The position numbers and the translations under genes are program-made. From Gyrodactylus bullatarudis (lineage: Eukaryota > Platyhelminthes > Monogenea > Gyrodactylidea > Gyrodactylidae): a stretch of 64,000 bases of DNA. Of the stretch, positions 196 to 62,619 are shown piece by piece. Under the pieces are notes generated by a model, which did no database searches, was not told the DNA's origin, and saw only the letters and a program-made list of their open reading frames with translations. Each line of letters opens with the position of its first letter. Positions within the stretch are counted from its first letter, which is position 1. The DNA lies in the NCBI GenBank assembly GCA_012064415.1, contig SSNU01000039.1, positions 20,249-84,248 of the forward strand, in the 5' to 3' direction.

Positions 196-1488
196 CGAAT
201 TTTATTTGTTTTGAGGTATTTTTGCTTTCCTATTGTGAAGTTATCCAGAAATGTTTGTTTGCTTAACCTCATTATTAGTTTCTCTAGAAACATCCTCATT
301 AAAACGTTGTTATGTATCGTAGGAAAAATTGAATTGTACCATTAGAAAGCTTGATTTTCAGAGATTATTTTGGTTTGAGCAGAAATTCGAAAATTTTATT
401 CAGATACTGATATTCATCAAAAAGAAACCTTTCATAATAATGAGGGATAAATAAAGCTGTTCTACATGAATATGGGAATCTCAGCCAAAACCGATAAAAA
501 AATTATTTTGCGTAATACCTCGAATCTTAATGTAATTTTTTTGAGAATGATTGATGTTGGGGTGGTGCATGGGGTTTACGGATTTATGGGATTTAAAAAA
601 TTCAGAATCTCCGCAAAAATAAGGGTATTTTGGAGAAAATAAGGTCTACTCATAATTGGGTGAAACCTTCACATTCGTGTTTGAGATTCAAAATTTCTTT
701 GAATGAGATCTTTTATTAATCATTGTCTGATTCATACGAATACAAAATGACATCCAATATCTTCAGAAATCTGTCTAGCTGAAATACCTCTTGACTTCAA
801 AAGTTTTATTGTGTGATAAAGTTATCTCTCATGCAGAGTCTCATTTTGTCAATCTTCGTGAATTTATGAAATAAGGTTATTTTTTGAAAAAGTAGTTAAA
901 ATAAACGAATTTTTAAAATCTTTTCAAATTTGTTTTTGTCTAAATGTTGCGAGATTTCGGAATTCATTGTTAAATGAAAAAGGTCATGATTGCTAACTCT
1001 ATCAATATTGAACTTTTAGGAAAATTATTGACAGAATAAGTAATAATGAGTTAAATAATATATTTTATAGAAAAATTAATTTGATTGGATATCGTTGGCG
1101 TTTTTCCCATCATATGCTGGTTTTTGCCTAACTATTACAGCCTTATTAAATGCTATTTCACGCAAAATAAGCGTTAGATACTGTTAGATTGCCATATTTA
1201 ATATTGTGGGGGAGATCTTCTTCGCAAAAAATTTATCAGAAAATAATCTGTGACTTTTCCCATATTCATGTAGAACAGCTTTAATTCAATACATTGTGTT
1301 ACATTACAACCCCAAACAAAGAAAAAAGGGGGCCTGTGTTTTTTGGGGGTAGACATGAAAAATTTTTATGAGCTATTCTACACCATTACCGGAAAATCTT
1401 AAGAAAATCAACGTTCACAGGAAAGCTGCTGAGCTTCAACTCTTTTTCACCCTCTTTTTCCACTAAAATAGGATTGGTTTAATCCTTA
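196..1488. other. Intergenic, no gene seen
   Basis: AT-rich sequence with frequent stops on both strands. I see no splice-flanked exon or recognisable domain here. Confidence 0.5.
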
Positions 1489-9612: not shown

Positions 9613-11435
9613 ACTGAACTGGGTCTATCTAATAATCGCAAGGATGACTCTAATACAGAGAAGTTCAAACTTGATCTTTTGACTATTTATAGAAGTTTTG
9701 ATCGTAAACCATTAAAATCTAGTTTACTTACTAATAAAATTTTTAAAGCACTTAAAGAACTAAAATCTAATGAAAGCAAACCTGACAAGGGAAAAGGTAT
9801 AGTAATTATGTATAAGGATGATTATTTTAAGGCAGGGTTAGATTTCCTTTCGGATGAAAGTAAATTTGAGAATACTGGGAGAGATAGATCTTCATATTAT
9901 AAAGAATTGGAATTCATTTATAGAATTGCTAAGGGGTTATTTGATAGAGATACAATTTCCGATAGAACTAGGGGTTTTATAGCAAAAAACATACCAGGAT
10001 GTGTAGATTATACTTACATCCTAAGACTCATAAAATAGTTGAGAGAGATGTTCCTGAAATTTTCCCGATTCGGCCGATATTGGATATGTCGTCATGTCCA
10101 CAACATAATTTAGCTAAATGGTTGATTGGTATATTGAAACCAATCCATGAACATTATTCTAAATATGTTGTAAGAGATACATTTTCATTTGTTGAAAAAG
10201 TTAAGGATTTAAACATAAGTTCAAAAGAGATGATTTCTTTAGATATTAGTTCTTTATTTCCTAATGTGCCTATAGAAGAAACTTTAACTATCATCAGTTC
10301 TTTTATCGATGAACATAACGGTTTTGAAATGCAGAGTAAGGAAATAACAGACCTTATCAGGATTTGTTGTACAAATGTTCCTCTATCTTTTCAAAACAAA
10401 GTGTTTATCCAAAAGGACGGTATAGCTATGGGTTCACCTTTAAGTCCTCTTTTAGCTGATATCTTTTTAGGTTGGTTAGAACTCAATAAAATGTCTGAAA
10501 CAATTAATTCTTTCACTGATGTGTACATCAGATATGTGGACGACACTTTTATTTTGATGAAACCGAATGTATCATCAGATGACTTTTTCTTAAAGATGAA
10601 TTCGTTTCATTCTAATATTAAATTTACTATGGAAAAAGAATCTAATGATTTTCTGAGTTTCTTAGACGTTAAACTAACTAGAAGAGATGACGGCTCAATT
10701 CAAAGAAACATCTTCAAGAAAAAGACGGACAATGGCAAATATCTGCATTTTGCTAGTTTTAGTCCTATTTCACATAAAGTTGGTCTAGTAATTGGATTGA
10801 GTAAGAGGATAAGAAGGATAGCGAGTCCAGAAGAAATTCCAAAGGAAATAGAGAATTTGAAGTTGTGTTTAATGGAAAATGGGTATCCCAATAAATTTGT
10901 GGACAAATTTATCAACTTACCAGTCGATAGAGATGTCGTTGAAAACACAGATGAAGTTGAGAAGACCACAATTTTCATGAAACTTAATTTCAAAGGAGAT
11001 GGTTTTAGTAACGATTTAAGGAGAAAGTTGACAAATCTCATCGATCAACATTATAACAACATACAATTGAAAATTGTATTTAAAACTCAGAGATTGTTCA
11101 ATTTGATTCACAAAGATTTACTGAGACCTGAAGAGAAGACTCTATTGATTTATAAATTTCAATGTGACTGCGGATCTTCTTATATAGGACGTACAATCAG
11201 AAAGTTGTCAACTAGAGGGAACGATCACCTTAAGAAAGATACAGCGATAACTAGGCATCTTAGACAGGAAGGGCATGAGGCTTCAATTTCGAATTTTTCA
11301 ATTTTATACAAAAACCCGAGTGATGACAGTACAGACGTTTGGGTGAAGGAGAAATTCTTCATAAATTTATATAAACCAGACTTATGTGTTCAAAAGAATT
11401 ATTCCTATAACCTTCAACTACCTTGGCCTATGTAA
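9613..11435 (+). pseudogene. Penelope RT with GIY-YIG endonuclease, one frameshift
   Basis: The PLE polyprotein catalyses target-primed reverse transcription. In order: N-terminal KPDKGKGIVIM (the DKG block typical of PLEs), RT motif A LDISSLFPNVPIEET, GIAMGSPLSPLLADIF, catalytic YVDDTFILM, FLDVKL, then a GIY-YIG module with CDCG, SYIGRT and an Arg-rich helix. Frame 1 runs to about 9990 and frame 3 from there to 11435. Alignment with PLE-2 places a single-base deletion in the A-run at about 9984-9989 (GCAAAAAACAT here, one base longer there). Apart from this the frame is intact, so the insertion is fairly recent. Confidence 0.85.
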
Positions 11436-11705
11436 GCTTTTTCACTTTTCTCTCCACTGTTGCTATTTATTGGAGAGTTTTGGTGTTTTTTCAGCTTACA
11501 TTTATTCTATTTTTCGTCAACTTTTACTATTTCTTTCATAATTTGTAAATTATTATTTTCATTCATCTTTTAACTTTTATCATTATCAAAGAGACACTAC
11601 TGATGAACCTTTGAGAAATGTACATTTGGTGTTAATATATCCTTTTTCTACTTTTCAAATTATGATTTTATGTGGATTTTCGGACGTATTTAAAAATTTA
11701 CGTGA
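9613..11705 (+). mobile_element. Penelope-like retroelement PLE-1
   Basis: An element of about 2.1 kb containing an RT-GIY-YIG protein (9613-11435) and a 3' region. The 3' region shares blocks with the second copy (21271-23117, opposite strand): TCTCCACTGTTGCTATTTATTGG just after the stop, a CACTACTGATGA...GAAATG block at about 11596-11622, and a terminal GGATTTTCGGACGT block near 11680. The reading frame starts abruptly at 9613 after an in-frame stop, so the copy is 5' truncated. The 3' boundary is estimated from where similarity to the other copy stops. I could not find a target-site duplication. Confidence 0.8.
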
Positions 11706-15410: not shown

Positions 15411-16810
15411 TAAATATCACTTATGGATATTTCTTTTGAAATATATATATGAGAAAAAAGATAATCTATGGTTTTATGGTCTAATAACTTTATGTATAAA
15501 ACCTTGAACCCCTATAAATAAACATTAATATATATTTACCCTATTAGTGAAATTCATTGCCAATTCAGAAAGTAAACCTCTTCTAAAGAATAGCCATAAT
15601 AAAAGTTCAGTGAGAAATCTTTATATATTTTATCATTGTGTCAAGACAAGATTCAAAGTCTTCCGCTATGTTAGAGTAAGAATCACGGTAATGATTTTTG
15701 ATACACAACAGGATATGAGTTGTGATGTTAGTTTCAAATTTTGTTTTACTTGTTTTTCTTATTGAGTAATAGATTTTACGAAAGCTGAATTCTTCTGAAG
15801 ATATAGTGAGTTATATATGGTTATAAAAGTAAGGAATGGAATGCATGGTTATTGAAAGATTGATATATCAGGGTCGGTAGATAAACCCTTGAACCCTTGT
15901 TCAAAGGACTTAAACAAGTTCATTCACTGTTTACAGTCAAAATGAACTGGTCTATCGAACACTGAATGGGGTTTGGATCTAAAAACCACTTTTGATCTTT
16001 CTATGATCACATTTTGTTAGAAGGATAAATTTCTAAAAAAACACTGTAATTTATTGAATATTTCAAACTCAAGTAATTTTTTTGGAAATTTGACGTAGTA
16101 TTTTATGATGTACAGTCAATTCAATACATGATGACCAGAGATAGTATTTAATGCCAAACCTTAAACTATTACATTGATTAGCCAATAGAATTCGAGTAGA
16201 TGAAATGAATATTTTTTCTTCCTCTGCCCTAAAATTAAACAAAACAAGAATAGTGTTTTCACAATTGAGACCCCCTCTATTTACCAAGCCAAACAACTAC
16301 GTCATACTCTTTCTCACTGAGTCATCGTATAGCAGACCCCCTTTCTCCTATTTCACGTTGTAAGAATTAACACTTATTTTTTTGTTAGACGAAATATTTA
16401 TTAAAATATTGAATATAGATTTATAAATAACGTATAAAGACTCTGGACCTAATTTCATATAGATGATGAAATTTGTAGTAAGGTATCTGAATAGTTTGGT
16501 AGTGTAAAATTAAAATTATAAAAAAATGAAAACTCGTAAATCTGCAAGAAATTCATTAATCATCTGGTTTATGAAGGTGAGAATTAAGAAGAGATATTGA
16601 ATAATCCAATTTGGATCTTATATGAGACATTATTAATTATAGACTAATAAGGTTCTCACAGTCAACTAATTCAAATTTTGCGTAGATAGAATTAAAAGCA
16701 GACAATATAAAATTAGATTTAAATTTTTCATAACGTAGATTGTAGCTACTATGAGTTGTGGAATAAGTTTCCGTGAATTTTTTCACTAAGAATGCATATC
16801 TGCGAACCCA
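15411..16810. other. Intergenic, no gene seen
   Basis: Short ORFs at 15547-15765 (+) and 16069-16296 (-) have no recognisable content. A block at about 16530-16670 is a diverged copy of the repeat at about 25370-25480 (shared CTGCAAGAAATTC and GAGACAT words). Confidence 0.4.
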
Positions 16811-17251: not shown

Positions 17252-17375
17252 TATACCTTTTTCAGGTCTAGTTCGTAGAATGAAGAAGTCAATTTTGTAT
17301 TTTTTCATTTTGTATTTGTAAAACTCAATTGTCTATTTAGTATGTAATTAAGGCTGGAAAAAAAACAAAATTGAA

Positions 17376-18353
17376 NNNNNNNNNNNNNNNNNNNNNNNNN
17401 NNNNNNNNNNNNNNNNNNNNNNNNNNNNNNNNNNNNNNNNNNNNNNNNNNNNNNNNNNNNNNNNNNNNNNNNNNNNNNNNNNNNNNNNNNNNNNNNNNNN
17501 NNNNNNNNNNNNNNNNNNNNNNNNNNNNNNNNNNNNNNNNNNNNNNNNNNNNNNNNNNNNNNNNNNNNNNNNNNNNNNNNNNNNNNNNNNNNNNNNNNNN
17601 NNNNNNNNNNNNNNNNNNNNNNNNNNNNNNNNNNNNNNNNNNNNNNNNNNNNNNNNNNNNNNNNNNNNNNNNNNNNNNNNNNNNNNNNNNNNNNNNNNNN
17701 NNNNNNNNNNNNNNNNNNNNNNNNNNNNNNNNNNNNNNNNNNNNNNNNNNNNNNNNNNNNNNNNNNNNNNNNNNNNNNNNNNNNNNNNNNNNNNNNNNNN
17801 NNNNNNNNNNNNNNNNNNNNNNNNNNNNNNNNNNNNNNNNNNNNNNNNNNNNNNNNNNNNNNNNNNNNNNNNNNNNNNNNNNNNNNNNNNNNNNNNNNNN
17901 NNNNNNNNNNNNNNNNNNNNNNNNNNNNNNNNNNNNNNNNNNNNNNNNNNNNNNNNNNNNNNNNNNNNNNNNNNNNNNNNNNNNNNNNNNNNNNNNNNNN
18001 NNNNNNNNNNNNNNNNNNNNNNNNNNNNNNNNNNNNNNNNNNNNNNNNNNNNNNNNNNNNNNNNNNNNNNNNNNNNNNNNNNNNNNNNNNNNNNNNNNNN
18101 NNNNNNNNNNNNNNNNNNNNNNNNNNNNNNNNNNNNNNNNNNNNNNNNNNNNNNNNNNNNNNNNNNNNNNNNNNNNNNNNNNNNNNNNNNNNNNNNNNNN
18201 NNNNNNNNNNNNNNNNNNNNNNNNNNNNNNNNNNNNNNNNNNNNNNNNNNNNNNNNNNNNNNNNNNNNNNNNNNNNNNNNNNNNNNNNNNNNNNNNNNNN
18301 NNNNNNNNNNNNNNNNNNNNNNNNNNNNNNNNNNNNNNNNNNNNNNNNNNNNN
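17376..18353. other. Assembly gap (N run)
   Basis: A run of 978 unresolved bases. Long ORFs crossing it are artefacts. Confidence 1.
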
Positions 18354-20097
18354 AAAAACTCACCTAACTTTTCAGGAATTGGCGATAAATCCAAATGACC
18401 AAGTTCATCTTCTTTAATATTAAAAGACCTTCAAAATGAGGGGCTGGGTGTCTTATAAGAATGTTATTTGCATGATTTATTACTGACTAAAGAATTACTA
18501 TTCTGATTGATCATGAAAATATATGCATTGTATTTCTATGAACGATGTTTTTGTCGAACCTTATCAAGAATGTTCGGAGATTCTAAACTCATATTGAAGT
18601 TTTATTTGGGTTAAAAACTTTATATTTTGTTTTCTCTCTCCAGACTCTACCCTAGTTAACTCAAGACAAATTTTTCTAAGGTTTCTCTGTCATAATTCCA
18701 ACGATAGAATGCATTCGTAAACTTAATGATACACAGATTTAATCTTAATATAATTTAAGTTTATAAGGAAATATCTAAAATCTATTTTTGTTTTATATTT
18801 CGTTCAATGCTGCAATACTTTAAACTTGAGTCTCATTGGTCGAGTTGGTTGGTCATGAAATATTAGCCAATCAGATACGAGTAAAGTTTTCTGCAACTAT
18901 AAGCAACAAATAAACTACTTAGGAAGTTATGAGATTTTCGAGTAGTTTTACCAGTGAGAAGATTCTCAAAAAAATACATTTATGCCCCCACTAAGAGCTA
19001 AGTATAATACATATACTAGAATATATCTGTAGACTATTGTAATAATATTCTTATTTTTGTCGTACAGCAAGAAGATTATATTGTAAGATTTGTGTAATTT
19101 TTGTAATATATTTATTTATTAGTTTCGAGTTGGTACCTTTTCAACTACAAAAGTGTAGGAATATTTGTAAGATTTCCTTAACTCAAATAATCGCTTGATA
19201 AATTACGACTTTCGTTATCTCAAACTTCTACTACCTTCAGCTTTTTTCAGATACTGAAAGATATTAGTTTTGTTTTACATTTCATGAAAATTTTAGCTGA
19301 AATATGTTGTTTACAAGCTCCATTTTATCACCACGAGTATACAGAGTTATTCGTAGAGTTTTAACGAATTTTAACATTTTTATAAATCAAAGTTTTCCGT
19401 GAAATTTCCACATATAATTCTGATAACAATGATGTGTGAGATCTAAATTAACTGAAAATTCGTTTGCAATCCCATGCATAGTCGTGCATTGCCCATTTCC
19501 CCTAAATTCTCTTGTAGGCATATTTGAATAACAAAATTTAACAGAAATGATCCTAACACGATTGTATTACTGTTCTCATTGAAGAAACCCTTGAAGCTTT
19601 ATCAGAAAAATGATATTCAAAATATTTGTGAAAACGTATTAAAAATTCATTCAAAATCTAGCGGCATTTTTAAAAAAAGTCTGATTTTTAAACTTGGATA
19701 TTATCACAGACAAGCATTTTGTCACTTGATCTTATATAAAATAATGTTAATAACTCATCATTTGAGTAGGTTGAAAAATTAGATTGAAAAATTTGTTACG
19801 TCTCTAATGCAGAGCAACAGAGCGCTTATTTATTGATATTATTGCTGTCTCTTTCTGGATTTTTTGAAGTTTGACTTTAGAAAGAGCTGATGGTTCTTCT
19901 GTTTTGTACCTTTGAATATTTTGAGATTGGGTTTAAGGATTTTTCTAAAGGGAAACTCAAACTCTGCTTAATATTTGTAGAGGTTTTTTCTAATTACAGT
20001 CTAGCATGCAACAATTATATTCACATTGTAAATCTGGTCTTGAAATTTGCAAATTAAGTCTATTCCAGATATTTAATAATGTTTTCATTTACTTCAG
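18354..20097. other. Intergenic, no gene seen; may hold 5' exons of kinase 3
   Basis: The next plus-strand exon (20098-20220) begins inside a kinase N-lobe without a start codon, so its first exon should lie in this stretch or in the gap. I could not identify it. A 67-codon frame at 19579-19782 starts at TTG and is not convincing. Confidence 0.35.
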
Positions 20098-23000
20098 AAA
20101 GATTATCCGGTACATGTTTTCAATAAGGAATTCACCTTGATCAAGATTATACAGGAGAATAAAAACTCAAAGGTCGAGATTCATCTTCACAACAATTTTG
20201 TCGTTTGTCTCAAAAGTGCAGTGAGTTATTTATAGATAGTGGTCAAATAGTGTTTTTTATTTAGAATTATATTAACTTAAATCTCGTGTTTATTTCTATA
20301 AATTCATGTTGCTTGAGTGTAATAACAACGTGATAAATTACCTATTTTTATAATAAATTTTAAAATTTTCATTGTGATCATTTCTTATGAGTAGAGACTC
20401 AGTTTAAAATGATTAACTCCTGACTCAATGAATAATACTCAGATCTACTCACTCCGATTTGAAAGATTTAGAGTTTTTCAAGAATGAAATTAATTAACTA
20501 ATAAAAGACCTATTATGTTAGGTAGGGGTATCATGACCTATGATAACACTAAAATTATTATTCAAAACCTTTTGATAATTTTAGGTATTAAATTAGATAA
20601 ACAACATATAAGTAACACGAATTTCGGTAATGCTATATTTCGGGAACGACGCGAAATTTTATCTATGGCCAATGTTAAAAAGGCCTTAGTCTCTTTGTCG
20701 TTTGGAAAAATTACTGCGAAACATGAGGGGGCAAATGTTCTATAGATTTGCCGAAGCATATAGCAAGAAAAGGCTAGTTCTATTCGGAAATTAACTTTTT
20801 CTTGATGAAAAATTATGAAATCTAATAGGAATTTTTCAATTTTCAATTGCAAACTTTTGAAAACCGTTGGAAAACGCTATAGTTTAATATTTATAAACAT
20901 ACTGTTTTAGCTGTAACATCTATACCTAGAATACAAGTGTGAGTAAAAATTTTTATGGAAAAACTCTCATATTAACATTAATAACTACCTCTAGCACAAT
21001 TCTGTCTTATATGAATGATACTAATTGCCGTTTTTATATTCAAGAATAGATTCTTTGATAGCTATTTTGGGTTCGTAGGTCAGCAATAATATAGAGTAAT
21101 TAACTTTTCTGATTAAAGTCAATTTTATCTTTACATGTCTGAAGAAAAAAGTATGCAGAATTCATCGGGTCCAAAGCCAAAGGACTCCTTTATTCAATGT
21201 CTAATCAGAAGAAAATTTTCCCCCTTTCATTTACAGTAAAAATATTTCTATTGAAACATCTTATTTTTATGAATGAGTAATTCACGTTGTTTATCAAAAA
21301 CGTCCGAGTATCCACTTAAATTCATAATTTGGGAATGTGTAAGAAAGAATTATATTTAAAAACCATATACGTATTTCTTAAAGCATCATCAGTGGCATTG
21401 CTTTAAAAATGATAAAAGTTAAAAGATTCATTCAAGATAATATTTTACAAATAATGAAAGAAATAGTAAAAGATGAATAAAATTAGAATAATATGTAAGC
21501 TGAAAAAACACCAAAACTCTCCAATAAATAGCAACAGTGGAGAGAAAAGTGAAAAAGCTCACATAGGCCAGGGGAGTTGAAGGTTATAAGAATAGTTTTT
21601 TTGAACACATAGATTGGGTTTATATAGATTAATTAAGAATTTCTCTTTGACCCATACATCTATGCTGTCATCTCCAGGGTTTTTGTACAAAATGGAAAAA
21701 TTCGAAACTGAAGCAGCATGTTTCTCCTGTTTGATATGTCTAGTTACCGCAGTGTCCTTATTCAGATGGTCACTTGATCTTGTAGACAGCTTCCTAATTG
21801 TTCTACCTATGTAAGAAGCACCACAGTCACATTGGAATTTATAAATTAGTAGAGTCTTCTCCTCCGGCTTGAGTAAATCTTTATGAATCAAACTAAACAA
21901 TCTCTGTGTTTTAAATACAATTTTCAATTGTATATTATTGTAATGTTGATTGATGAGATTGTTAAGTCTTCTTCTAATGTCATTACTAAAACCGTCGCCT
22001 TTGAAGTTGAGTCTCATGAAAATCTTAGTTTTCTCAATTTCATCTGTATTTACATCTTCATCCCTATTATCTGAAATATTGATGAATTTGTCTACAAATT
22101 TCTTAGGATAACCATTCTCCATCAGACACAACTTTGAATTCTCTATTTCATTAGGCCATTCCTCCGGACTGGCTATTCTTCTTATCCTTTTCCCTAGACC
22201 AATCACTAAGCCAACTTTATGCGAAATGGGACTGAAACTGGCATAATGAAGATATTTACCATTGTCAGTCTTCTTCTTGAAAATATTTCTTAGGATTGAT
22301 CCATCATCTTTTCTAGTCAGTTTAACATCTAAAAAACTCAAAGTACCATTAGATTCTTTTTCCATAGTGAACTTAATGTTTTGATGAAACGCGTTCATCT
22401 TTAAGAGAAATTCATCTGTTGATACATTTGGTTTCATCAAAATAAAAGTGTCATCAACATATCTGATGTAAACATCAGTAAAAGAATTGATAGTTTCTGA
22501 CATTTTATTATGTTCTAACCAACCAAGAAAGATATCTGCTAATAAAGGACTAAGAGGTGAACCCATGGCTATCCCATCTTTCTGTATAAAAACTTTGTTC
22601 TGAAAAGATAGAGGAACATCCGTACAGCAAATCCTTATAAGTTCTGCTATTTCCAGGCTTGGTAACTCAAAACCTTCGTGTTCGTCAATGAAAGATTTAA
22701 TGATAGCCAAAGTTTCCTCTATAGGTATACTAGGAAATAAAGAACTTACATCTAATGAGATCATCTCGTTAGAACCTATATTTAAATCCTTAACTTTATC
22801 AACAAATGAAAAAGTATCTTTGACAACATATTTAGCATAATATGTGTGAATAGGTTTTAAGATATCGATTAACCATTTAGCTAAATTATGTTGTGGACAT
22901 GACGACATGTCCAAGATCGGCCGACTCGGAAAAACCTCAGGAATTACATTATCAACTATTTTATGTGTCTTAGGGTGTAGATACAATCTAGACATTCTAG

Positions 23001-26000
23001 TATGTTTCTTAGCTATAAAGCTTCTAGTTTTATCCGAAATGATATTTCTATCAAACAAACCCTTGGCTATTTTATACATGGAACGTTCCATGGATTCCAT
23101 TGTCTTATAATAAGAAGATCTTATTTTTATTGAAACACGAATATTAACCCCCTAATTAAGTATTATTTATCTCGACCTATCTAAATGTATAGAAATCACT
23201 TGCTGCATTCTGATTGGTCGAGATAAATAATACTTAATTAGGGGGTTAATATTCGTGTTTCAATAAAATAAGATAATTCAATAGAAATATTTTTACTGTA
23301 CCTATTTTAAATTTTACTTTTTCATTTTAATTTTTTTACTTCAGTTCCAATATCAAAATACAAAAAAATGTTTATGAATATTTCATTCAAATTTGAAATA
23401 ATATAAAAGGTTGCTTATCCTGCAGGAGTTTTCCCAGATATTGAGTCTCATTTCATTTCTTGTAAGAACTTATTATTCATCCAAATTATACCTAAAGGCT
23501 TGATATAGTCCTGGGAAGTACAATCGTATTACTCATAGAATTAAAATACAACTATGGATCATAAATTTACGGAGAAAACTAAATGTTTCTACCAGCTTTG
23601 GCATATGGGAAAGGGCACACCCTACTTTTTCAAGATAAAATATATTTTTTCTTCTGTCCACATACTTTTTAGAGGGTCTATTAGTTAGTTTGAAGATTTT
23701 TTTACCTAAAATACTCATGCCATTTATGTAGGAAATATTATTCTGATGAGAATGATGTAGAATTTCGGTATCAAATTGTTTATGGTGGTGGTGGAAACTT
23801 CACAAGAAAAGCTTTTCATAATTTTCAACTTAATGCTGAACTTATGAGTTTTTAATTAAGCAAGATAATTACAGGTTAAACGAATCGCTAATTATAATTA
23901 GAGGCCTCGAAAGTTTTTCACATTGTACAACTCAAATTTTATGACGAATTTTCTGAACCCATTGAACCCTTTCAAACGAAAAATCATTTACAGTAAAATA
24001 TTTTTATTGGAACACGAGTAATTACTAATACCCCCCCCCCCTAATTAAGTATTATTTATCTCGACCAATCAGAATGCAGAAAGTGATTTCTATACATTTA
24101 GATAGGAAAATAAGTTAGTTTTTGTGAAAATGGGAAAATTCACTGTTTTCAGGGGAAAATGAGTGCCAAATCCATCTTCAGCACATTTTAAAACCCCTGA
24201 TCATCATTGGAGAGGAAAAGACAACAAATTGGTGAGTATATACGAGAAAATGTATTTGGTAAAATTATGTCAATTACAAAAAGTGAGATAGTTTTTGAAG
24301 GAAGAAAGGACAGGAGAAACTCTTTGAAAATTAGATTGGACACATATAGATATACGATTTGAGCATAAAACCAAAAGCGAATCCCATAAGAATCAACAGA
24401 AATACTCACTGAAACTCCGTCATTGAAACTCGATCAAACGTTGAGCTGCATGGTTATAAAGTCGACAATCAAAGACATCTGTGCTCATTCCTGAAAATTG
24501 TCCTTCTTTTGAGACTAAATTAATCCTCATTTCTTGGCTCAAAGGTGGTAATTGATAAATTCGTTGGACTTATTATTTTTTCATAATATCGACAAATTAT
24601 ATATATTCTAACAAAAAGGAAAGATTATTTGAGCTTTGTTTTAAATTGCATTTTCTTAGTAAAGTTATTTTTCAAAAGTAGGAAATTTTTGGATTTAACC
24701 TTTTTATCAAATTATCATCATACATGTATCTAATTCAATACAACTTTTCACAAAACAGTACTAAACTAAGTCATATGACTTAAATCTTATGTTCAATACA
24801 TCTAAATAAGATGCTAATACTCAATCTTAAGGCATCAAACTTGGGCCTTTTATTCTAAATCAAGAATTTATATCCAAATACATTATTATGCACGATCAAT
24901 TATTAAATAAAATTATTTATTAAAAAATTAAAAATCTTCATTATTCATTTCTCTCTGGACGTATCTCCTCATCGATCGGTAGTATCCCCTCATTGTCAGC
25001 ATCTGATCTTGATTGAGGGGGATACTTACTCTTCTTCTGAGGTCTTCTCTTAACTCTCCAGGTCGTTGTAACTCTCCCCTTGAAACTGCTGAAGTATTCC
25101 TCTATTGAAAATGACTTAGACGAATTGTAAAAAGGGACTTTTACCCTTGGATTTTTTGTAATTAACCTAAAAAATTTTGTTAGAAAAAAAAATCTTATAT
25201 TGAATTGAAAATATAAATAAAAATTATAACGAAATCTGCCTGTACAAATATAAATAAAATACAATAATTAAAATGGATAGATTGATCAGTACAGTTATGA
25301 AATGTTAAAATGTTGAGTCATAAAATAAGGTAAAGGCTCTCGAGTTGTAGAAATTTGAGCAATAGTAGAGCCTGAGAACTAGAGTCTGCAAGAAATTCGA
25401 AAATCAACTGGTTAATGAAGATTAGAATAAAGCAAAGACTTAGAGTAATCGATTTTAAGCCTGATGTGAGACATGACCAATTTAAGATTCGTCAGTACAC
25501 CATAGCCAGGATTCGAACCCAGGTCTTCAACGTTGTGAGGCAACGCTTTAGTCCTAATAAGGACGAAACGCGTCTACATCTGCCAACGTGAGTTGAATAT
25601 TATTTGACTCTCTTATGGAATTGACACTTGTTTATCCGAATTTCTAACATCTAGGTGTGAGAAGACAATCTCCATCAAGTTAGAGTTCATATGGATATAG
25701 TAATTACCAGTGACCACACTCTGCTAGTAGGTTGATTGTCAGAAATCAGAATATTTTTTAATTTTAGAGATTGGAATAATTTTAACTATGAGCCAATCCT
25801 CAGGGATGAAACAATTACTAATACAAAAATTTAAATAATTACATAAATTAATTAGGAAGTTATTGGAAAGGGAATTTAAAAGATTCAAGGAATTAAATTT
25901 AGAATCAATTTTATTGGGATTTTTGCAATATTTCATAATTTTTTTAAAGTCATCAACTGAATTTCAGCATCACCGAAAGAGTTTTCAAAATAAAGATTAA

Positions 26001-36542: not shown

Positions 36543-52182
<15,640 letters not shown>

Positions 52183-57126: not shown

Positions 57127-57379
57127 ACAAAGAGAAATTACCTAAATAACATTATTAATTTATTTATGAATACAGATTTTTTTTCTGAATAATAAAAATA
57201 AAATTTTACCATCGCTGAAGATAAAACTTCTTTATACTCAAATTAATATATAATAATTTACAAAGTTCATTGAAACATTTAAAAATGCTGGCTATCATGC
57301 TGGAGCTTCGTTAGAGGAAAGAAAAAGATTTATCTTCTAAAAGAAATTTTATTTCATTTTATTTTGCTTATGGAACAAG

Positions 57380-60300
57380 ATGGATTCCGAGAAAATGTTC
57401 GAAGAATTCAGGAAAGACAAACGTTCACAGATTGTGGATCGAGAAATGTTTGCAAGGGCATTAAAATATTTTTTATCTGATAAGAACAAAAATAACAATG
57501 AGGATTCTGACCAGGATACGGCTAAACAAATTTCAAATTCAGGCTTTTATATGTCACCAAGTTCATCAACAACAGCCAGTGTGAGAAGGGGTACTTTTTT
57601 ACATTCAAACTCAAACAATGATTCCGATTCTGATAGTAATGAGGACCAAGACAACGAGGAGAACGAAGAAGAGGATCAATCACAGGAGGTGGACGATGCC
57701 AACGAAGACGAAAACATTGAACAAGATGACGAAGAATCTAATGAAGACGAACCGAGCGAGAAGGATGAAGAATCAAATAACGATAATTCGGACGATGAAG
57801 AATCAAATAAAGATAATCCAGATGATGAAGACGAACCGAGTGAGAAAGATGAAGAATCGAATAACGATAATTCGAATGATGAAGAATCAAATAACGATAA
57901 CCAAAATGATGAGGACGAACCGAGTGAGAAAGATGAAGAATCAAATAACGATAATCCAGATGATGAAGACGAACCGAGTGAGAAAGATGAAGAATCAAAT
58001 AACGATAATCCAGATGATGAAGACGAACCGAGTGAGAAAGATGAAGAATCAAATAACGATAATCCAGATGATGAAGACGAACCGAGTGAGAAAGATGAAG
58101 AATCAGAATAACGATGATCCAGATGATGAGGGATCAAAAAATGATGGAGACAATTCCATCGAAGAAGAGGTCCAAAACAATGAAGATGAAAATAACGAAG
58201 ATGACCCAAACGATGGCGATCCAAATGAAGAAGAGGTCCAAAACAATGAAGATGAAAATAACGAAGATGACCCAAACGATGGCGATCCAAATGAAGAAGA
58301 GGTCCAAAACAATGAAGATGAAAATAACGAAGATGACCCAAACGATGGCGATCCAAATGAAGAAGAGGTATCAAAACGATGGAGATGACCCAAACGATGG
58401 CGATCCAAATGAAGAAGAGGTTCAAAACGATGGAGATGACCAAAACGATGGCGATCCAAATGAAGAAGAGGTTCAAAACAATGAAGATGAACCAAATGAC
58501 GATAATCAGAATGAAGAAAATTCGGAAGAAGAACCTGACGGCATTTTAAACAATGAAGAAGATGAACCGAATGGCGCTGATCTAAATGAAGATGAACAAA
58601 ATGATGAAGATGGAAATAACGAAAATGAACCAAAAGACGATTATCAGAATGAAGAAAATCCTGAAGACGAACAGGATGAAAATGGCATCCTAAACAATGA
58701 AGAAGACGGAAATAACGAAGAATTAGATCCAACTGGGGTAGATCAAGACCAGAACGATGAACCAAATCAACAAGAAGAAGAAGAAGATGCCAATCCTAAT
58801 GATAACCCAGAAGAGCCTAACAGCCAAGAAGATCGTATTATAAACGAAGATGCACCTAATGAAGGGGAAAATGAGGCTAATGAACCTGAAGGTACGAATG
58901 CTGAAAGGCAAGATGAAGAAGACAAAAATGGAGATTTGGCCGAAGGAGTTAATCCAGATCAAAATGATGGTCAAGAAAATAAGCCGAATGAGGATAATCC
59001 AGAACAAAACGATGACATACAGGGCACTGCCAATGAAGACCAAAATAATGAAATACAGCCTAATAATGACGATCAGGAAAACAATGATGGAAATACGACA
59101 GAAGCTCCAGAAACTCAAATGCAAAATGAAAACGAAGAATCAAACTTTAAAGGGGCTGGAGCTATTGCAGCTGGTGTTGCAGCTGGGGCAATTGGAGGCT
59201 ATGCGGCAAGTAAAATTTCTAGTTTAATGAAGAGGAAAGCTCCCCCCATTCCAGTAGGTAAACCGATAAACGATGAAACCCTAAAAAATGCAACTCCAAG
59301 CAAGGCTCCAACAAGTTCAGGTAAAGGGAAAGCCCCACCGATACCAGAATCAAAGTCAAAACCAGAAAACGATTCAAAAGGTAAAAAAATACCAGATGAA
59401 AACAACAAAAATGCTGAAAAAAAGAAAGATAAAGGCTCAAAAGATGTCAGTAAAACTAAAAAAGATGATAAAAACGTTAAAAAAGTAATTAAAATCCAAA
59501 AAGTTGAACAAAATAGGTCTCATCGTCGTGGATTTTTTGGTGGAGCTGCCAGTGGAATATTTTCAGGGCCAGGTGGCGGTCACAGAGGCTACGGAAGACA
59601 TCCTCAACCTCCGCGTGGTTATCAGGGTGGCGGTGGACTCACAAATCTTTTTGGTGGTTATAGCTCACCAAAAGTCAATCAAAGACCAGAACCAAAACCA
59701 GTCGTAAAGAAAACTGAGAATGGTTTGGTGAAAAACAGTAGTGATCAGGCAAATAAAAAGGATGAGCAGACTTCTAAGAAGATTGAGAATCCCCAAGAGT
59801 TGAAGTCGAAGGAAAATACTGAAACTAAAGATAGTAATGGAAAAACTAAGCCAAACGAAGAAGGAAAACAGAGTAAATCAGATATTTCTAAGCCCATTGA
59901 CAACAAAAAGAATGAAGATCGAAGTCCAGATACATCGAAAAGACGCTTCGGCTCAGCTAATATTCAGGATAGCTCTTGGATGTTTGACGAAAGTAAAACT
60001 TTTAATAATCTTCAAAAGAGTCGTCAAGAGCAGCCGTCTCAGAAAAAAGAGGCGAACTCAAAGAACAAAAAGAAAATTGTAGCAGATGTTTCAAATTTGT
60101 ACAAACAATTAAAAAAAGATCAACTTCCTGATAGTCTGAAGGAGCAGAAAAAGCCTAATCAATCAGATGAAAGGCGGAGAGAATCAATAAATATGAAGGA
60201 TAGTCCATGGCTGTTCAGAGAAGAGACAAATAGAATTGAGAGAAGAGGATCCATCGATATTCAGGATAGTAAATGGATGTTTGAGGAGAAGCCAGACGTG

Positions 60301-62619
60301 CCTAAGGGAGAAGAAGCCGTTGCCAAAAGTCCATTGGCTGAAGAGAGTCTGATTATAAAGACAAATTCAGAGGTTGATTTGGTCCATTCACATCAATCGG
60401 CTGATAATACCGGGAAATCTATAAGAGGCAAGCCACTAGAAAACTCTGAGAGTACTTGGGAAATGTATGACAATCGATATCCTGATAAAACGGTCGAGTT
60501 GTTAAACGCAGACAAACTGATTGTTGGTCGTGATGAAAATTCTGACCCAGGTCCCGATGAGCCAAATATCAAGGAACCGTTTACTGGACCAACATTAAAA
60601 AAGAGGAGAGCTCCACTACCACCCTCAATGGGACCAATGACTCCAGATTTGCTACAGAAAGAAAGATATGAGAATAAAAATTTAAGTGAACCTAAAGAAC
60701 ACCTAGGAAGACTTGATTCAGGAAGAAACCTAAATGATCCAAGGTTGAAAGAACCGTTAGTTGGGCAAAAAACACAAGAAAGTGGAAATTTAAAACCCCT
60801 TAAGAGACCTGAACCACCAAATCAACCTTTTATATCAGAGAGACCAGGACCCCCAAAAAGAGAAGAATCGCCAAACAAGTATGATTCGAGGATTCTGGAA
60901 AAAATACCAGAGAGACCCGAACCACCAAGAATAGCTAAGAAGCCTTCATTCAATGATTCAATGACGCCTCGATTGAATCAAGAACGAACGGTTTCACAAC
61001 GAGCTGAATTGCCAAACAAGTATGATTCGAGGATTCTGGAAAATATACCTGAGAAACCTGAATCTCCAAAAATACCTGAGAAGCTTAGATTCAATGATCC
61101 AATGACGCCTCAAATAAATCATGATCCAGATGCCCGAACAGATTCACAACGAGCTGAATTGCCAAACAAGTATGATTCGAGGATTCTGGAAAAAATACCA
61201 GAGAGACCCGAACCACCAAGAATAGCTAAGAAGCCTTCATTCAATGATTCAATGACGCCTCGATTGAATCAAGAACGAACGGTTTCACAACGAGCTGAAT
61301 TGCCAAACAAGTATGATTCGAGGATTCTGGAAAAAATACCAGAGAGACCCGAACCACCAAGAATAGCTAAGAAGCCTTCATTCAATGATTCAATGACGCC
61401 TCGATTGAATCAATATCTAGATGCCCGGACAGATCTACAACGTGTTGAACCGACAAATAAACTAGATCTTCTTACTCATAAAGTTTCTGATAAACCTGAT
61501 TTGCCTAGTATTTCACATAAGCAAGTGGATCTAGACTTGGATACCCAAAGATCACATTTTTATAGTCTTGTTGAGAATACAAAGCCTGCAATTTCAGATT
61601 TAAAAGCAAAAAATATTTTAGAAAATTATCTTCTGAAACATGAAACAATTAGATCTCAGACTCCCAAGAGACCTGAATTAGTAGCGCCATCAATAGCCAA
61701 GCCTCCAGAGAATATTAAGCCAAAAAGACCTGAGCCTCCCAGGTTAGACTCGTCGTCCATCAAAAGAAAACATGAAACACCAAAAGTAAACACATCTGAG
61801 AAGAATGTCTCAATAGAAAGATCGATCGTTCCACAAAAACCAAAGTTGTCAAACTCAATAAAAACTAAGCTGCATGTATTACAAACTATGAAAAAGCAAG
61901 CTATTCCAAATGAGCCCAAAAAATATGAAAGCTTGATTTCAACTACAAGTGATTTTACTGAAGCAGATCTTGACCATGGGCCATTGGTTCTCTCACAAGA
62001 AAGCGATCCCAAATTAAACATTTCAATTCCACAAGGCTGGCAACAAAGACAAAAACTAGTGAAAATGAAAGAGAAGCAAACCTTTGAACTTGGTGCTGAC
62101 CAGTTTGATCCTAAATCAGTATCTGAAAGGCCTTCTCAGGTTGATAATGACTCGCTAGCTGAAAGAAATCCTTCTGTTCAGATTAAAAATGAGCCAATAG
62201 AGTCAAGTTCATTGCATCCGCCCCAATCCAGCATCGGTAACGAAGGTTTTGTTTTGAGTTTGTCAAAACCTCACGAGACCCAGAGAAGAATTTCATTCAT
62301 GCTCGATCAAAAGAATGATGAGGAAGATTCGGAATATGTGTCAGACAGTGAGAAAACTTATGCTGACTCTCGGTCTTCCTTTGACTATTCAACTTTTATC
62401 TCAAAAGATGAAATCAATCTCGATAAGTTAACTGGTAATACGGAAAAAGGTGAAAAATTGCAAAGTCGCTTCATATTCTATGGGAGGGACGCGGAAAAAC
62501 TTCAGAGTGACTGGGATTTTATCAGAAAAATAGAGAATATTGTTGACCTTACTCAGAACATTCCTGGACAGGCCTGTTATACAATTTTGAATATTTATCA
62601 AAATCCCAATGAAATTTAG
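57380..62619 (+). CDS. Giant acidic, repeat-rich disordered protein, two 1-nt frame disruptions
   Basis: The ATG at 57380 (MDSEKMFEEFRKDKRSQI) starts frame 2, which continues into frame 3 after an extra G at 58106 and into frame 1 after an extra A at 58370. Removing both bases leaves exactly 1746 codons (1745 aa plus stop at 62619). The N-terminal half is Glu/Asp/Asn repeats: 18-residue units ending SEKDEESNND, then 22-residue units with EEEVQNNEDENNEDDPNDG. Next come an Ala/Gly helix (GAIAAGVAAGAIGGYAASKI, about 59155), proline motifs APPIP/APLPP, a Gly/His-rich patch, three DSxWMF-type motifs (59961, 60187, 60251), and four 47-50-residue repeats (60874-61440) starting NKYDSRILE. The C-terminal 100 residues are mixed and may fold. 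Function unknown; a scaffold or matrix-like role is inference. Confidence 0.75.
57729..58500 (+). repeat. Tandem 54-nt and 66-nt coding repeats
   Basis: The first array (to about 58105) has units of 54 nt encoding NPDDEDEPSEKDEESNND, several nearly identical. The second (58160-58500) has 66-nt units encoding EEEVQNNEDENNEDDPNDGD PN. Near-identity of units shows recent expansion and makes assembly or read errors likely here. Confidence 0.9.
60874..61440 (+). repeat. Four tandem 141-150-nt coding repeats
   Basis: Units start at the codons for PNKYDSRILE and end around QRAEL. Units 1, 3 and 4 are almost identical in DNA. Unit 2 is diverged and carries an extra HDPDARTD segment, also present in unit 4. 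The pattern suggests recent duplication or gene conversion among non-adjacent units. Confidence 0.9.

Follow-up and report, generated by a model that had tools for sequence, protein, structure and literature searches.

A split hammerhead repeat in the window

The window, the whole analyzed stretch of 64,000 nucleotides of Gyrodactylus bullatarudis DNA, contains two copies of a short repeat with parts of a hammerhead ribozyme as well as two copies of Penelope-like elements (PLEs). Copy 1 of the repeat extends from 25482 to about 25741 and consists of two arms lying back to back; these limits come from comparison with the family described below, and the BLAST ends lie at 25748 and 25757. The left, inverted arm (25482-25548, minus strand; insertion L001) corresponds to positions m83-149 of the repeat unit and holds the head and the 5' half of the hammerhead, with CTGACGA at 25489-25495 and the stem I strand GGTGTA at 25496-25501 (together 25489-25501, minus strand). 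The right arm (25550-25741, plus strand) begins at m142 and carries the 3' half of the hammerhead and the tail; its right end is approximate and lies close to start site 1. The 3' half (25551-25580, plus strand) is composed of stem II GTCC-TAATAA-GGAC (25551-25564), GAAA (25565-25568), CGCGTC (25569-25574), whose C stands immediately after GAAA, and TACATC (25575-25580), and includes the self-complementary stem III and the cleavage triplet GTC. An earlier sequence-only reading had placed the two halves on opposite strands, and all parts were found at these positions. A clear target-site duplication is absent and the left arm begins at m149, outside either start site, so that copy 1 has itself been damaged or is atypical.

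Copy 2 (48720-49053) lies between 10-bp target-site duplications of the sequence ATTAGTTTTT (48710-48719 and 49054-49063) and is built from a short inverted arm (48720-48755, minus strand), which begins at start site 1 (m332), and, beyond a joint of 21 bp, a long direct arm (48777-49053, plus strand) with head, hammerhead and tail, which stops at start site 2 (m361). The head contains an A box (TGGCCTAGTGG, 48779-48789, plus strand) and, 44 nt from it, a B box (GGTTCGAATCC, 48823-48833, plus strand), both identified by the box consensus and the tRNA-type spacing. The hammerhead (48841-48863, plus strand) is broken. The orientation of GGTGTA (48841-48846) and of the first stem II strand is correct, as had been read from the sequence; the core, however, reads CTGACTC instead of CTGANGA, a detail missing from the earlier reading, so that the 5' half is likewise broken. 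Comparison with intact family copies bore out the proposed deletion of 18 nt with the GAAA core: GGAC-GAAA-CGCGTC-TACA is missing after 48863. A whole hammerhead is absent from both window copies, and a scan of the window with Rfam gave no match reaching the cut-off.

One of the PLE copies in the window is 5'-truncated (21271-23117, minus strand); it has a reverse transcriptase (RT) and a GIY-YIG match slightly below the threshold (21.9 bits, cut-off 22.6) and is flanked by 13-bp duplications (21258-21270 and 23118-23130). The second copy (9613-11435, plus strand) has a broken frame. A stretch at 16004-16052 resembles a degraded tail end of the repeat, and no PLE sequence lies alongside it.

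A family of hammerhead elements in the genome

The whole genome (77 Mb, 471 contigs) was searched with the 31-nt hammerhead core, which at up to three mismatches gave 161 forward and 165 reverse matches (326 in total, 70 of them exact); the reversed core pattern gave none on either strand at the same stringency. The two window repeats are relics of a family numbering hundreds of small mobile elements, many of which have an intact hammerhead motif. The sequence-only reading had named a genome in which both halves never share one orientation as the result speaking against it; what we found are 326 core matches with both halves in one orientation, and the predicted intact copies with head, ribozyme and tail all in one orientation are among the family members. 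It had also proposed to search the genome with the tail and with a hammerhead covariance model. The tail gave 906 first-look candidates, 40 of which were scored; the result of the covariance model is given below together with the sister family.

From tandem and single copies we derived a unit of 368 nt, which comprises Pol III-type A and B boxes, a minimal type I hammerhead and a 200-bp tail. In detail, a spacer (m1-65) is followed by the A box (from m68) and the B box (from m112) at a spacing of 44 nt, by the stem I strand GGTGTA (m130-135), CTGACGA, GTCC-TAATAA-GGAC, GAA and ACGCGT, and by C (m166), the second stem I strand TACATC (m167-172) and the tail. Two A-runs mark the sites at which insertions end, site 1 at m333-337 and site 2 at m368-m6. 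The description of the repeat as tRNA-headed holds for the A and B boxes, which stand at tRNA spacing, but not for a tRNA as such: ARAGORN found none in the window, and the Rfam tRNA model was not reported at E ≤ 5 on one intact copy (L034). The unit is free of TTTT, which lends slight support to Pol III transcription, 230 of 2000 shuffles being likewise free of it. A non-coding repeat of 368 nt with a type I hammerhead falls within the 170-400 nt that define retrozymes, and its length rules out an open reading frame with RT and GIY-YIG. The element therefore inserts in the manner of a PLE, as set out below, but is not itself a PLE. As part of the whole explanation, we consider it likely that it is a non-autonomous retroelement which joins a Pol III-type head to a minimal type I hammerhead and to a tail in which RT has two start sites about 34 nt apart.

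The hammerhead motif and a sister family

The family contains the core of the type I hammerhead (RF00163), CUGANGA, GAAA and NUH, together with stems I and II. Intact copies have six stem I pairs, four stem II pairs and a self-complementary stem III, exactly as had been pieced together from the two damaged window copies. Rfam Hammerhead_1 aligned to an intact copy from model position 1 to 45 with 26.6 bits (E 6.5e-5 on 131 nt; cut-off 34); stem III has no loop, and the model otherwise fits this family (family 1) end to end, though below the cut-off. The minimum free energy fold of L034 contains stem II and a stem I that is complete with its six positions, and core bases which hammerheads leave free are paired as well; this fold has a z-score of -2.0, and 8 of 200 shuffles were equally good.

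The whole-genome search with the Rfam hammerhead model yielded 57 listed matches, 29 of which reach the cut-off, and none of 14 control genomes contained such a match. Ten of the 29 were fetched (L103-L112) and all belong to one sister family, with, e.g., 38.3 bits for the hammerhead of L107 (cut-off 34). The box-bearing head is kept in five of them (L103, L105, L106, L107 and L110) and the other five are shortened. Boxes and ribozyme are common to both families and the tail is different, similarity being confined to m68-176. The sister hammerhead has stem I GGCATA/TATGTC, a loop II that is mostly AAAAGA and stem III ACGCGCGT; the fold of L103 is not better than shuffles (z -0.40; 64 of 200). 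Past the end of the sister-family copy in L108 lies sequence that by eye resembles a further diverged PLE coding stretch (reading like ...NGYPDNL...).

Comparison of both families bears on the covariation that had been expected for the stems. Two stem I pairs differ on both sides and still pair, which we regard as modest evidence for covariation, as the 5' strand of family 1 would also form six pairs with the 3' strand of the sister family through G-U. Stem II does not vary between the consensus forms and is uninformative. Stem III differs in length, and each version is its own reverse complement, for which the chance is about 2% for a 6-mer and 0.6% for an 8-mer. Stem I was compared by hand, since MAFFT had aligned the 3' stem I strand of family 1 in the wrong place.

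Tail-selected copies gave no sign of purifying selection acting on the ribozyme inside the family; in them the hammerhead has 3.2% mismatches versus 1.9-2.8% in tail and head and is consequently not better kept; copies selected by their core are unfit for this comparison. The ribozyme of the family may be active. Directly repeated pairs of exact hammerhead parts (no mismatch allowed) occur nowhere in the genome, either at unit spacing or 20-50 nt apart, and at this stringency a source of double cleavage is therefore not seen.

Structure of the insertions and pairing of their ends

We parsed 99 distinct insertions, which were picked by exact or one-mismatch hammerhead cores or by tail identity and are not a random sample; the core places were drawn from the 100 of 326 that were listed, and 24 insertions with 43 arms were tail-selected. 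Head-to-head palindromes account for 59 of the insertions, single copies for 29 and direct partial tandems for 11. Target-site duplications with a score of at least 10 were found for 44 of the 99, compared with 2 of 200 mismatched flank pairs. The duplication of L099 is false (unit sequence), leaving 43 real ones, and the lengths range from 10 to 25 bp, most commonly 13 bp. The 44 comprise 35 palindromes and 9 single-orientation copies. Inverted arm, partial tandem and target-site duplication are hence all present as insertion hallmarks, and the best reading of the split hammerhead in the window is that it marks the inner junction of a two-armed insertion.

Each palindrome with duplications is bounded on either side by a 3' end of the unit. 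In 33 of the 35, one of these ends falls on site 1 (m317-340) and the other on site 2 (m343-30), about 34 nt apart, with modes near m332 and m366. For an even chance of unlike ends, the probability of at least 33 of 35 is 1.8e-8. Of the other two, L049 is borderline (332/343), and L052 has like ends (332/324) despite its duplication. Several site 2 ends at m350-356 and one at m30 lie off the A-run. The distance between the sites agrees with the 30-40 nt that separate the adjacent start sites in the RNA of PLEs. All 35 duplications differ in sequence and T-richness is alike at both target ends; because of this likeness, the target does not dictate which ends are paired. Seven of the nine single-orientation copies with duplications end at site 2, L038 ends at site 1, and the remaining one is the false case L099. 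Of the palindromes, 24 lack a clear duplication; automatic sorting assigned unlike ends to 4 of these, like ends to 8 and an unplaced end to 12. Where a duplication is missing, the arm ends come from BLAST and are accurate to within a few bases; inspection showed some of them to be wrong. After reading the flanks of the eight like cases, L066, L087 and L096 turned out to be unlike, and L002, L006, L010, L021 and L063 stay like.

Since site 2 ends seven of the nine single-orientation copies, we infer that it is the normal start and that the second strand, primed on the same RNA, is left with site 1. The end pairs would also fit a dimer of two RNAs, each of which gave one site.

Template ends and the length of the arms

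The 168 arms have their 5' ends scattered along the unit, most densely at m61-72 beside the A box, where 25 of the 77 ends within m61-135 lie (P 2.7e-4). A smaller cluster of 10 arms lies at m284-294; these arms run past the head (L007, L015, L036, L038, L040, L054, L056, L067, L070 and L073), as if this were a preferred end of the RNA or of reverse transcription. The tail-selected loci were picked without regard to the ribozyme; of their 43 arms, 27 continue across the cleavage site and 2 stop within 3 nt of it. In the full set 114 of 168 arms cross the site, once per arm; this count is biased by core-picked loci, and we rely on the 27 of 43. A linear monomer cleaved by the hammerhead was considered as the main template and rejected, as no accumulation of 5' ends is seen at the cleavage site. 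Of the 168 arms, 24 exceed one unit, with a reference length of up to 553 nt, and 25 arms run unbroken from the head via the spacer into the tail of the preceding unit. Tandem copies with two hammerheads are represented among the 99 insertions by partial tandems only.

Penelope-like elements in the same genome

PLEs, here termed PLE-A and PLE-B, are abundant in the genome. Of 85 scored matches, 78 are places with PLE-A, 3 belong to PLE-B and 4 are second pieces; several PLE-A copies have open frames of 700-820 aa, and PLE-B occurs at further places. The PLE-B copy L101 is built with mixed ends like the element itself: it has a 12-bp duplication, an inverted arm ending at a first site and a direct arm that extends 59 nt further, a gap longer than the published 30-40 nt. 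The terminal repeats of both groups contain hammerhead-like motifs with a palindromic stem III (ATGTACAT or ATACGTAT), 4-5 stem I pairs and hardly any stem II, located at 11595-11631 (plus strand) and 21363-21396 (minus strand) in the window, at 4226-4265 in L079 and at 545-586 (minus strand) in L101. These motifs are RAGATH-1-like at best: Rfam gave 19.5 bits to RAGATH-1-hammerhead for PLE-B (cut-off 56.3) and no hammerhead for PLE-A. The element and the PLE stretches L079, L080, L101, L102 and L113 have no sequence in common beyond chance.

The mode of insertion of PLEs has been described for a purified lizard PLE protein, which cuts AT-rich DNA and extends both top and bottom strands, starting at two adjacent internal RNA sites; the segment that separates these sites makes up the genomic "tail" (Frangieh et al., 2024; PMC11167929). 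In the same account hammerhead mutants still insert, and unprocessed RNA is the main substrate in vitro. For Penelope of A. vaga, a 31-bp tail that is optional on one inverted pLTR and target-site duplications of 8-10 bp were reported in 2013 (PMC3846280).

Probable mobilization by Penelope-like machinery and its alternatives

As the two start sites, the two-strand extension, the tail and the inverted arms match this published signature of PLEs (PMC11167929, PMC3846280), we read PLE machinery as the probable mover. The element is thus most probably a hammerhead SINE or retrozyme which PLE machinery mobilizes, with both target strands primed on one RNA. It would be transcribed, partly from its head and presumably by Pol III, and an autonomous PLE protein with RT and GIY-YIG nuclease would pick RNA that is uncut at the ribozyme. 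After a staggered cut in AT-rich DNA, both target 3' ends could prime on the element RNA, usually around the second A-run (site 2). If the second target strand also primes, it would take the other site, and joining of the two cDNAs head to head would give a palindrome with one end about 34 nt longer.

The main alternative is a classic metazoan retrozyme, in which hammerheads cut tandem transcripts into monomers that are circularized by a ligase, and an RT, from a PLE or another source, copies the 368-nt circle for more than one round. Other metazoan retrozymes have documented circles (PMC7229834), an RT that starts inside the RNA does not need a 3' end, and the arms longer than one unit or running into the tail of the preceding unit are what such copying predicts. 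However, these long arms can also be explained by outside transcripts of partial tandem copies, the genome lacks exact hammerhead pairs at unit spacing or 20-50 nt apart, and the 5' ends peak by the A box with only 2 of 43 arms in the tail-selected loci ending at the cleavage site. We regard copying of a circle as rather unlikely.

PLE machinery also has to be weighed against LINEs. Insertions of LINEs likewise show head-to-head 5' inversions together with target-site duplications of such length, and a SINE mobilized by ordinary L1-style twin priming on linear RNA might at first sight look alike. In L1 twin priming, however, the inverted part is not known to overlap with the direct one. In the present family the overlap can be extensive, as in L003 (m117-332 and m62-367), and the outer ends are 3' ends on both sides, close to two internal sites, which makes this origin very improbable.

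The sequence-only reading had explained the split ribozyme by a later genomic inversion of an intact older element. Copy 1, with its halves on opposite strands, its missing duplication and a left arm that starts off the start sites, would by itself suit this explanation, but it had to be abandoned as a general cause: most parsed insertions are two-armed, the palindromes differ in their inner junctions, and 35 of 59 have clear duplications, so that we give it hardly any credence. An inverted-repeat DNA transposon or fold-back element that acquired a hammerhead would account for inverted terminal arms and duplications, but has a negligible probability given arm lengths and junctions that vary among copies, direct partial tandems and single copies, ends that differ by about 34 nt and duplications of 10 to 25 bp.

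Relation to known hammerhead elements

The kind of element described here is already known; what is added is the record of PLE-type insertion and the mixed-end rule. Short repeats with a hammerhead are found in schistosomes as the SINE-like elements Sm-alpha and Sj-alpha, and Sm-alpha resembles elements that derive from tRNA-Gln-TTG (PMC2770079). The present element is set apart by a head that is not recognized as tRNA and by an insertion structure that has been worked out. It shares with metazoan non-LTR retrozymes the type I hammerhead, a non-coding unit of 170-400 nt, duplications of more than 4 bp and co-existence with PLEs (PMC7229834), but differs from them, as far as they are described there and in a review of 2020, in its A and B boxes, in its mostly palindromic or solitary copies instead of full tandems and in ends that point to PLE-type priming (PMC7229834, PMC7761336). 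With PLEs it has in common a pair of internal start sites that enclose a tail, an inverted arm, partial tandems and AT-rich targets (PMC11167929, PMC3846280), and with the hammerheads of their pLTRs the minimal form and the self-complementary stem III; unlike PLEs it has no RT/nuclease open reading frame, and its stem II has 4 bp versus no proper stem II in the PLE-A and PLE-B motifs.

PLEs were proposed in 2020 as a strong candidate for mobilization on the basis of shared hammerheads, tandem copies and co-existence (PMC7229834), and in the words of the 2020 review hammerhead repeats show no motif that would betray their partner (PMC7761336). PLEs have thus been long suspected but unproven as mobilizers of animal hammerhead elements, and many copies in this genome record insertion ends. 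These ends agree with the two internal start sites and the two-strand extension of one lizard PLE in vitro (PMC11167929). We see about even chances for the general form of this interpretation, in which both target strands are served by a single RNA during PLE-type integration, each strand must take a different one of the adjacent start sites so that two-armed insertions are nearly always mixed, hammerhead SINEs exploit this two-site arrangement, and PLEs are thereby identified as the movers of metazoan hammerhead retroelements. The mixed-pair rule predicts one RNA and two primers and can be tested in any PLE-bearing genome; we did not find it reported as a count in the open-licence PMC literature.

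Other features of the window

Two open reading frames of about 250 aa at 39340-40128 and 41806-42546 (minus strand) are alike by eye and perhaps form a local gene family; the one at 39340-40128 has no Pfam match. The region at about 17375-18367 translates to X only, its letters being N, either withheld or a gap. At 57341-62619 (plus strand) there are low-complexity open reading frames with acidic repeats (EDEPSEKDEESNNDNPDD-like) and proline-rich repeats.
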